Assembly (NCBI RefSeq): GCF_937951745.1
Contig: NZ_CALFBQ010000073.1
Coordinates: 1-64,000 of the forward strand
Length of the DNA: 64,000 nt
Reading direction: 5' to 3'
Source: an uncultured Chloroflexus sp.
Lineage (GTDB): Bacteria > Chloroflexota > Chloroflexia > Chloroflexales > Chloroflexaceae
Below the pieces are notes generated by a model that made no database searches, had not been told where the DNA came from, and saw only the letters and a program-made list of their open reading frames with translations. Shown here one piece after another: positions 1,462-5,246 of the stretch. Position 1 is the stretch's first letter. Every line of letters begins with the position of its first letter. The translations under genes and the position numbers were made by a program.

Positions 1462-2628
1462 TCACGCTTCCCGAATCAGGACATGGCTCACCGCAGTTGC
1501 ACCGATCCCGCCGAGTGACTGAGCTAACCCAACGCGGGCATTGCTAACTTGGGTCGCGCCAGCCGTACCGCTCAGTTGGCGGGCAAGTTCGATGATCTGA
1601 TAAACTCCGCTTGCTCCACCAACATCGCCACGCGCCTTGTAGCCGCCGGCAGTAGCAATTGGCGTCTTGCCGGTTGGTGTGATCGCGCCTTCGGCAGCGT
1701 GGCGCGGGGCCGTGCCGGGTTCGTAACAGCCAATCGCTTCTAACGCCAAGGTTGCAGCAATGCCGTGCGGATCGGTCAGCTCCCACACATGCACATCGCC
1801 AACGCCAAGGTGGGCACGACCAAGGGCAATGTGGGCACTGGCGCGGGCCGCGCTTAGTTCGAGCGGGTTGCGCCGGCGATGCAAGGCCGGGGTGTCAGTG
1901 GCGACAGCAGCGCCGGCGATGCGGATGCGCGGGCCGTCAAGTTCGCGTGCCAACTGCTCGCCGGCAATGAGGAGAGCGGCAGCGCCATCGGCCAGCGTGC
2001 TGCAATCGAGCAGGTTGAGCGGCGAGGCGACCATAGCCGCTTTGCGATACTTGTTGGCATCAATGGTAAACCGGTAGAGCGCCAGCGGATTTTTTGCCCC
2101 GTTGGCATGGGCATTGATCGGGAATGGCGCGAAAGCGTCGGCAGTGTAGCCGTACTCGTGCATATAGCGGCGCATGAGCATCGCCCACTGCGCAGTAAGG
2201 GTGATGCCGTGCAACGCTTCCTCGTTGCTGTCTGCGGCCATAGCCTGCGCGGCCTCGATCACGTCTTCGAGGTGGTCGGTGACCTTCTCAACCCCGATCA
2301 CCAGCGCAAGCGGCAGGCCGTGCTGTACCGCTTGCACCGCTTGGGAGAGCGCCATTGCGCTGCTAGCGCCAGCGGCTTCAATGCGGAAGGCCGGAATCGA
2401 TGGCGAGAGGCCGAGCATGCTGGCGAGATACGCACCAAGCTGGCCCTGCCCGTAAAGTTCTTCGCTGTAGGCGCTGCCCACATAGAGCGCACCGATCTGG
2501 TGTGGCGCCAAACCCGGCGCGCTCGCGAACGCGGCTCGCGCCGCTTCACTGGCCAGATCGGCTAGATCACGCCCGTAGTGCTCGCCGACGGCAGTCGCGC
2601 CCATGCCGGCAATATAGACGTTGGTCAT
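1462..2628 (-). CDS. Thiolase-superfamily protein of the mevalonate cluster, lacking the catalytic cysteine
   Basis: 388 residues of the archaeal/SCP2-type thiolase family, which normally condenses two acetyl-CoA to acetoacetyl-CoA. The start is firm: AAGGAG sits 5 nt before ATG 2628. The nucleophile region, usually EAACASG, reads EAAGASS (Gly codon GGC), so the acyl-accepting Cys is gone. The C-terminal GHPxGATG loop reads ARGDVGGASG, losing the His. HVWELTDPHG replaces the usual HDAF/HE region. The fold is otherwise intact with no frameshift, which suggests a maintained protein with a non-catalytic or altered role, perhaps a scaffold or CoA-binding partner of the HMG-CoA synthase 39 nt upstream. 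Confidence 0.8.
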   Translation of the reverse strand: MTNVYIAGMGATAVGEHYGRDLADLASEAARAAFASAPGLAPHQIGALYVGSAYSEELYGQGQLGAYLASMLGLSPSIPAFRIEAAGASSAMALSQAVQAVQHGLPLALVIGVEKVTDHLEDVIEAAQAMAADSNEEALHGITLTAQWAMLMRRYMHEYGYTADAFAPFPINAHANGAKNPLALYRFTIDANKYRKAAMVASPLNLLDCSTLADGAAALLIAGEQLARELDGPRIRIAGAAVATDTPALHRRRNPLELSAARASAHIALGRAHLGVGDVHVWELTDPHGIAATLALEAIGCYEPGTAPRHAAEGAITPTGKTPIATAGGYKARGDVGGASGVYQIIELARQLSGTAGATQVSNARVGLAQSLGGIGATAVSHVLIREA

Positions 2629-2667: not shown

Positions 2668-3717
2668 CTACCCCATCACCAACTTACCGCGCCACTTGGC
2701 ATAGATCGCGTAATCGATCATCACAGCGCGCTTGAGGTAGGCTGCGGTCAAGGGCGCTCGCTCGCGCCGCTCCAGAATCGCGTCGGTGACTGTGAGCGCA
2801 TAGGCGTCAGAACCGGCTCCGCTGCCGTAGCTGGTCACGAAGATGGTGTCACCCGGTTTGGCTATATCGAGAATGGCGCACAGACCGATAAGTGCTGCGC
2901 CCGAATAGGTGTTGCCGATCTGTGGACTGAGCAATCCCGGTGCGATTTGGGCGTCGGTAAAGCCGAGCCGTTTGGCAACTACTTGGGGGAATTTGGCGTT
3001 TGGCTGATGAAAAACGGCATAGGTAAAGTCAGCAGCCGTGCAGTTCAATTGACGTAACAATTCGGCGGCTGCCGATTGAATCTGGTGAAAGTAGGCCGGC
3101 TCGCCGGTGAAGCGATTGCCATGCACCGGGTAGGGCCGATCGGCGCGGCGGTAAAAGTCGGGTGTGTCAGTGACATACGAGAGGGTGGCGTCGATGGTGG
3201 CCAGCGCCTGCTCGGCAGGGCCGACGATCAACGCTGCTGCACCGGCTGAGGCGGTGTACTCCAGTGCGTCACCGGGCCGGCCTTGGGCCGTATCGGCACC
3301 AATTGCCAGCGCATAGCGCTGCATCCCGCTGCCGACCAACGCCATCGCTGCCGTCAGCGCCTCTGAGCCGGCTTTGCAGGCAAACTCCCAGTCGGCGGCG
3401 CTGACCCACGGGCCGGCACCGAGCGCATCGGCGACTACTGTGCCCGATGGTTTGACACTGTACGGATGGCTTTCGCTGCCGATCCAGACCGCACCGAGAT
3501 CGGTAGCAGAAATGTCAGCGCGCGCCAGCGCGTTGCGCGCTGCTTCGATCGACATCGTGATGGTGTCTTCATCGGGACCGGGGACGCTTTTGGCTTCCAC
3601 CGGTACCCCGTTTTGGCCATCGGTCCAGATGCGGGCAATCTCACGGGCCGCGATCCGGTAGCGCGGGATGTACACGCCGTAGCCGATGATGCCAACCGGT
3701 TGCTGAGGCTTCATCAT
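2668..3717 (-). CDS. Hydroxymethylglutaryl-CoA synthase, archaeal type
   Basis: 349 residues. Condenses acetyl-CoA with acetoacetyl-CoA to HMG-CoA, the committed step of the mevalonate route to isoprenoids. The N-terminus GIIGYGVYIPRYRI is typical. The acyl-enzyme Cys is in ADWEFACKAGSEAL, the His in YAVFHQPNAKFP, and the C-terminal loop is GSGAGSDAYAL. The start at 3717 has GGAG 11 nt upstream; an adjacent ATG at 3714 is equally possible, while the in-frame extension to 3813 is not family-like. It lies 206 nt after HMG-CoA reductase and 39 nt before the thiolase homologue, the order known for the archaeal three-protein complex. Confidence 0.88.
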   Translation of the reverse strand: MMKPQQPVGIIGYGVYIPRYRIAAREIARIWTDGQNGVPVEAKSVPGPDEDTITMSIEAARNALARADISATDLGAVWIGSESHPYSVKPSGTVVADALGAGPWVSAADWEFACKAGSEALTAAMALVGSGMQRYALAIGADTAQGRPGDALEYTASAGAAALIVGPAEQALATIDATLSYVTDTPDFYRRADRPYPVHGNRFTGEPAYFHQIQSAAAELLRQLNCTAADFTYAVFHQPNAKFPQVVAKRLGFTDAQIAPGLLSPQIGNTYSGAALIGLCAILDIAKPGDTIFVTSYGSGAGSDAYALTVTDAILERRERAPLTAAYLKRAVMIDYAIYAKWRGKLVMG

Positions 3718-3923: not shown

Positions 3924-5246
3924 TTAGTTCTTGGCGGGGTCGCCGACGACACGCCGGCCTTCGAGTTCGGCGATAATCTCTTCGGCGCGAGCCGGTTTGA
4001 TGTTGCGCTCGGCCACCATGCGGCGGGCAACTTCATCGACCAGCGTGCCGGAAGCGCCGGCAGCCATCGCAATCTGGCGGGCATGCAAACCCATGTGGCC
4101 CTGCTGGATGCCTTCACACGCTAGCGCGCGCATCGCAGCGAGGTTGTTGGCCAAGCCGGCAGCGACGCAGACTTCGGCCAGTTCGTTGGCACTCCGCACA
4201 CCGAGCAGTTTCAACGCGGCTTGGGCCGTCGGGTGTACTTTCGTGGCCCCGCCGACAATCCCGACCGAGAGCGGCATTTCGAGCGTGCCAACCAGATTGC
4301 CCTGCTCATCACGCTCCCAGTGCGAGAGCGAGGTATAGTGACCGTTGCGGCTCGCATACGCATGGGCGCCAGCTTCGACCGCACGCCAGTCGTTGCCGGT
4401 GGCGACGAGCACCGGATCAATGCCATTCATGATCCCTTTGTTGTGTGTCGCCGCTCGGTAGGGATCAACCGCGGCAAAGGCGTAGGCCCAAAGAATACCT
4501 TCCACCACCTCTTCGCCGGTGAGGCCGTCGCGGGCCAATGAGGCTGCCGGCACAACGCAGCGGGCACGCGCCAGTCGGCGATCGGTCAGATTCGAGAGGA
4601 TGCGCAAATAGACGCGCCCGCCAGTCATCTCGGCCAAGAGCGGCGCTACCGCTTCGGCCATCGTGTTGACCGCATTGGCACCCATCGCGTCGCGGCAATC
4701 AACGATAAGATGGACGATCAGCATCGGCCCCATCGGGCTAGTGGGAAAGAAGCGCACCTCAACATCACGCGCGCCGCCGCCGAGCGTCACCAGTGAACGG
4801 CTTTGGGCATTGGCTAGTGCCAGAATTTCTTCCTTGCGAGCGAGAATCGTCTGGCGAGCCTGATCGGGATCGGCGACATGCACCAACTGCACCTGCCCAA
4901 TCATCAGCGGTTCAGTGCTGCTGGTCTGAAACCCACCGCCATCCCGCACCATGCGAGCGGCATAGCTCGCACCGGCCACAATTGATGGCTCTTCCACCAC
5001 CATCGGGATTAGGTAATCGCGCCCGTTGATGCGGAAGTTGGTGGCAATACCGAGTGGCAAATTATATGTGCCAACCACATTCTCGATCATCTTGTCGGCG
5101 CGCTCAATACTTAATGCGCCGCCACTGCCGCCATGCAGTGCACGTAAATCTTCATCAACCAGTCCGTCGAAGGACTTTACCATCTGGAGCCGCTCAAACG
5201 GATTGAGTTGGTAGAAACCTTGAAGTCGTGAATTTTTGGTCCCCAT
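3924..5246 (-). CDS. mvaA: Hydroxymethylglutaryl-CoA reductase, class II (degradative-type fold)
   Basis: 440 residues, the usual length of class II enzymes. Reduces HMG-CoA to mevalonate. Visible motifs are [14 protein letters not shown] near residue 53 (substrate loop), [14 protein letters not shown] (cofactor/active-site Asp), [12 protein letters not shown], the [16 protein letters not shown] loop, and the C-terminal GHMGLHAR flap with the catalytic His. AAGGAGG lies 9 nt before ATG 5246, one of the best ribosome sites in the window. As first gene of the minus-strand mevalonate cluster it likely carries the main promoter. Established work on Roseiflexus describes an alternative mevalonate route in this phylum; the later enzymes are not in this window. 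Confidence 0.93.

Follow-up and report, generated by a model that had tools for sequence, protein, structure and literature searches.

The window, a stretch of 64,000 nucleotides from an uncultured Chloroflexus sp. that matches the neighbouring species C. islandicus at 94%, carries on its minus strand a mevalonate cluster with the gene order HMGR-HMGS-thiolase-Yip1-DUF35. By domain search, the cluster starts with an HMG-CoA reductase (positions 3924 to 5246; PF00368), which scores as TIGR00532, the class II or "degradative" type, despite its biosynthetic surroundings. The archaeal-type HMG-CoA synthase (HMGS; 2668 to 3714) reaches 509 bits against the TIGR00748 profile, and its active-site Cys and His, described as intact in the first-pass annotation, are indeed in place together with the Glu (motifs GSESHPY, EFACKAG and VFHQPN). 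The thiolase homologue (1462 to 2628) is followed by a Yip1-domain membrane protein (816 to 1406) and by a DUF35/ChsH2-type OB-fold protein (424 to 819; PF01796), the putative scaffold of a complex. The gap of 39 bases between the HMGS and thiolase genes and the overlap of 4 bp between those of Yip1 and DUF35 suggest a single transcription unit. Archaeal-type HMGS and DUF35 genes thus adjoin the thiolase gene, as a thiolase/HMGS/DUF35 complex calls for at the gene level.

This gene order around the thiolase is common to the sampled loci of the order Chloroflexales, the Yip1-domain gene being inserted between thiolase and DUF35 only in most Chloroflexaceae. The zinc-ribbon cysteines of DUF35 (CxxC...CPxC) are lost here, as in all Chloroflexales loci read and in locus L075, and are retained in most Anaerolineae, some with a catalytically emptied thiolase among them. 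Dxr is absent from the genome of the window and from 7 other genomes of the order that were tested, and the mevalonate pathway is therefore presumably the isoprenoid route in these bacteria.

The pseudo-thiolase and its catalytic residues

The thiolase gene is open over 388 codons, begins with ATG and has an AAGGAG a few bases upstream, so that the ribosome site and reading frame noted at first inspection both stand. The protein combines Thiolase_N (PF00108) and Thiolase_C_1 (PF22691), which places it in the archaeal-type (SCP2-like) thiolase family. The residues on which acetoacetyl-CoA thiolases depend, namely the nucleophilic Cys and the His of the GHP and HD-F blocks, are replaced by Gly87, Asp335 and Thr285, respectively. 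Codon 87 (2368 to 2370) reads GGC, and Gly87, within IEAAGASSA, occupies the same alignment column as the Cys of EAACASG in the solved homologues 7YVY and 6ESQ; the change of EAACASG to EAAGASS originally read from the letters is thereby upheld. Likewise, the C-terminal loop was correctly given as ARGDVGGASG. It aligns with ARGHPVGATG and AAGHALGATG in 7YVY and 6ESQ, and RGDVGG (residues 333 to 338; 1615 to 1632) takes the place of the RGHPVG catalytic-His loop, with Asp335 for the His. The earlier count of two missing active-site residues, nucleophile included, was right for both and too short by one, since it overlooked the HD-F block. There, TDPHG (residues 285 to 289; 1762 to 1776) replaces HD[AC]F[TSA], ELTDPHG standing against EVHDAFT and EVHDCFA in the solved homologues, with Thr for His285.

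A loss confined to the Cys is excluded by the replacement of both catalytic His. Another Cys aligned at the nucleophile position would have restored a conventional reading; the alignment with solved thiolases contains no substitute Cys at or adjoining this position. Nor does the protein reach the NCBIfam cut-offs for acetyl-CoA acetyltransferases, scoring 269 of 600 bits for NF053570 and 323 of 420 for NF004720. The Chloroflexus protein has therefore most likely lost thiolase activity, judging from its residues. The proposal that a probably non-condensing relative holds the thiolase position is well supported, with three catalytic residues replaced and the loss fixed in the order. Genome annotation of Chloroflexus would credit the first step of the mevalonate pathway to this protein, which is probably incapable of the thiolase reaction.

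Conservation in the order and cysteine loss elsewhere in Chloroflexota

The first-pass annotation asked whether the Gly is fixed in the clade, and an alignment of 57 thiolase sequences from four families of the order, with identity down to 47%, answers that it is: 55 of them have Gly at position 87, one has Thr, one (the copy of genome G115) has a clean in-frame deletion of 4 residues at the nucleophile, and none has Cys. Such agreement (55/57) rules out a sequencing error. Full-length copies of the order that were read have an open frame, and within the genus the dN/dS of the pseudo-thiolase is 0.05-0.07 at a dS of 0.5-1.6, indicative of purifying selection; at moderate dS, HMGS stands at 0.02-0.04 and the Yip1 gene at 0.1-0.16. 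A structure model of high confidence (pLDDT 96.8) matches 6ESQ chain A with a Z of 62.8 and an rmsd of 1.2 Å over 384 aligned residues, which ranks first among the structural matches. Given the low dN/dS and this match, the Chloroflexus-type thiolase has lost its catalytic residues while retaining its fold and remaining under selection. What had been presented as the oddity of a single gene is real as regards the gene; the condition itself is order-wide and has evolved repeatedly in Chloroflexota.

Presence of the gene follows that of HMGS. Pseudo-thiolase and archaeal-type HMGS occur together in the sampled genomes of the order, and the four genomes that have no pseudo-thiolase and no contig break to account for it (G028, G106, G129 and G144) likewise have no archaeal HMGS. 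In G140 the HMGS gene lies at a contig end that cuts off the thiolase, and G137 is fragmentary. HMGS retains its Glu, Cys and His in all loci read that include these residues. In three of the genomes devoid of the pair (G028, G106 and G129; Chloroflexales, 95-100% complete), neither Dxr nor a bacterial HMGS exceeding the cut-off was found; G144 has a fragment of a bacterial-type HMGS.

Of 25 HMGS-linked copies from Chloroflexota outside the order, 9 have the Cys and 16 have another residue (Gly in 11, Asp in 3, Gln in 1 and Glu in 1), whereas Cys, HD-F and GHP are all preserved in the 16 paralogues of that clade that are not linked to HMGS. The association of Cys loss with HMGS linkage (16/25 vs 0/16) gives a Fisher value of 3e-5 that ignores kinship; the phylogeny offers only 3 independent pairs for this comparison, too few for a correction. 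With the catalytic columns left out of the alignment, the tree has weakly supported deep branches, and on it parsimony requires at least 3 changes at the nucleophile. Good support places the Cys-less Thermoflexus-like copies L042 and L044 next to L040, which is intact. A grouping of all linked copies without Cys in one clade, defined after the tree had been seen, is rejected by the AU test (p-AU 1e-5; 2e-4 without the Thermoflexus pair), which rules out one ancestral loss for all of them. In HMGS-linked Chloroflexota copies, the Cys was thus, judging from these trees, lost repeatedly and independently, with varied replacements. In several Anaerolineae genomes, a dead copy linked to HMGS coexists with an unlinked one that is intact.

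A separate clade, unlinked to HMGS (L076, L077, L084, L146 and L152), has Thr for Cys ([ER]AATATG), with HD-F intact in 5/5 and GHP intact in the 4 that cover it. The generalization that every unlinked copy keeps the Cys is therefore false.

A putative non-catalytic partner of HMG-CoA synthase

Taken together, these observations lead us to consider it probable, though well short of certain, that an archaeal-type assembly of thiolase, HMGS and DUF35 retains, as an obligate subunit without catalytic function, a dead acetoacetyl-CoA thiolase, and that acetoacetyl-CoA comes from another thiolase. Synteny and fold, the two lines of evidence that bear on it, suggest an association of the protein with HMGS and DUF35; by analogy with the archaeal complex, the predicted assembly would bind CoA. 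HMGS would still depend on a partner with the thiolase fold, both to assemble and to hold the CoA thioester, and the pseudo-thiolase would complete the CoA site of HMGS. If HMGS cannot bind CoA thioesters without its partner, the cell has to retain the thiolase fold even once the thiolase activity has become redundant. A scaffold of this kind should be retained with HMGS and lost with it, its nucleophile should be replaced in varied ways, and the cell should contain other thiolases; the observations agree with all four expectations.

The substrate would then be made by one of the canonical thiolases of the genome and reach HMGS from solution. The genome of the window encodes 3 thiolases above the TIGR01930 cut-off, and the 2 of them that were checked have all four active-site motifs. 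A canonical thiolase is present in 80 of 82 genomes of the order, the exceptions being G157 (60% complete) and G090 (92% complete). In G090, the pseudo-thiolase is present and a canonical thiolase was not found, which counts against our preferred explanation. Outside the order, a canonical thiolase accompanies every dead linked copy (16/16 genomes), and in the three genomes without a canonical thiolase (G191, G362 and G278) the linked copy is always intact (Fisher 0.037, kinship ignored). A separate canonical thiolase therefore likely supplies acetoacetyl-CoA.

Among the three roles initially put forward, a structural or CoA-site subunit is favored by the co-occurrence with HMGS, the independent and varied Cys losses, the retained fold and operon, and the presence of other thiolases; a different reaction and a regulatory role fare less well. 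The strongest rival, unlikely but to be taken seriously, is a neofunctionalised enzyme in which a pocket of Thr/Ser285, His288, Asp335 and Trp148 would run another CoA-thioester reaction, in the manner of Ltp2 or Sal with DUF35. Across the order, 26 positions conserved in active homologues have another majority residue, and 7 of them lie no more than 4 residues away from one of the four catalytic blocks, against 2.4 expected (p 0.006). The new pocket residues are invariant or nearly so: Trp148 and His288 in 57/57, Asp335 and Pro287 in 53/57. The emptied active site is thus not drifting freely, which counts against a pure scaffold and is what a new ligand or a new chemistry would lead one to expect; the fixed Trp148, His288 and Asp335 could denote either new pocket chemistry or a sealed pocket. 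Moreover, Sal likewise pairs with a DUF35 protein and carries Gly at the nucleophile position (PMC12329534), and the structures 9MYR and 6OK1 are among the structural matches to the model. Nevertheless, the aldolase signature Y-D-[HC]-[FY] is missing, TDPHG standing in its place, which rules out an aldolase of the Ltp2/Sal type specifically; residue 285, the position of the base Tyr, is Thr, Ser, Cys or His. Cys-less HMGS-linked lineages outside the order differ in the pocket (F/Y288, mostly Ala148, and N, F, H or A at 335) and therefore share no new chemistry, and the operon shows no evident substrate beyond the mevalonate steps. It is quite unlikely, on our estimate, that the two readings divide by lineage, the Chloroflexales protein being a new enzyme (Trp148, Thr/Ser285, His288, Asp335) whose CoA-thioester reaction feeds or edits HMGS, and the subunit having become, independently, a dead scaffold in other Chloroflexota.

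A regulatory subunit that binds CoA, acetyl-CoA or acetoacetyl-CoA and tunes flux through HMGS would also explain the kept fold and operon and the pocket conserved within the order; being hard to tell from a structural role by sequence, it is distinctly improbable as a separate explanation. Continued thiolase activity, based on some atypical nucleophile or on residues that a partner contributes, could be argued from the gene being the sole thiolase-like one of the operon, at the usual place; the replacement of Cys and both catalytic His, the deletion at the nucleophile in G115 and the existence of other canonical thiolases make it very improbable. A decaying pseudogene or assembly error would account for the missing catalytic residues and can be dismissed in view of purifying selection (dN/dS around 0.05) and conservation, with frames open in full-length copies and Gly in 55/57.

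Comparison with known systems

Several known systems share parts of the predicted arrangement. The closest solved sequence is the Pyrococcus furiosus thiolase PFC_04095 (7YVY; phmmer E 1.3e-70, around 40% identity), in which, unlike in Chloroflexus, EAACASG, EVHDAFT and ARGHPVGATG are intact. Sulfolobus tokodaii ST0096 (4YZO) is thiolase-like and has Ser rather than Cys at the aligned nucleophile position, but it keeps the GHP loop and is only 26% identical. The steroid side-chain aldolases Ltp2-ChsH2 (6OK1) and Sal-Shy (9MYR) combine a thiolase fold with a DUF35 partner and show, in Sal, the same replacement of the nucleophilic Cys by Gly (PMC12329534). Their catalytic Tyr motif, YDHF or YDCY, is missing from the Chloroflexus protein, and they serve steroid degradation whereas the latter belongs to a mevalonate operon. 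The Friedel-Crafts acylase PhlABC (5M3K, 5MG5) unites HMGS-like, thiolase-like and DUF35 subunits, with only one thiolase-fold subunit engaged in acyl transfer (PMC6392133). In that enzyme, however, the thiolase-like PhlC is catalytic and the HMGS-like subunit is not, the reverse of what is proposed for Chloroflexus.

A literature search of partial coverage found neither a Cys-less Chloroflexi thiolase nor a dead thiolase subunit fixed, by repeated evolution, in a thiolase/HMGS/DUF35 complex. The type of complex is already known, and a repeatedly evolved dead thiolase subunit within it appears, in the literature so covered, to be new. The archaeal complex of Methanothermococcus thermolithotrophicus (6ESQ/6ET9) has homologues of all three subunits, its thiolase sharing the fold (Z 62.8) at 34% identity (sequence match E 2.6e-48). 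It differs in that its thiolase has the Cys and both His, all replaced in Chloroflexales, and in its DUF35 zinc cysteines, which Chloroflexales have lost. Published work puts CoA at the interface of all three proteins in the solved archaeal complex (PMC6392133) and describes a CoA site common to thiolase and HMGS, by way of which the intermediate moves on (PMC12329534). The complex is explained as a channel that leads acetoacetyl-CoA from thiolase to HMGS. Half of this channel looks catalytically dead across a bacterial order, and independently elsewhere, yet it is kept with HMGS. If this is confirmed, it would not be channelling that preserves the complex but its assembly or the CoA site that the subunits share, and natural separation-of-function mutants would be available to test what does.
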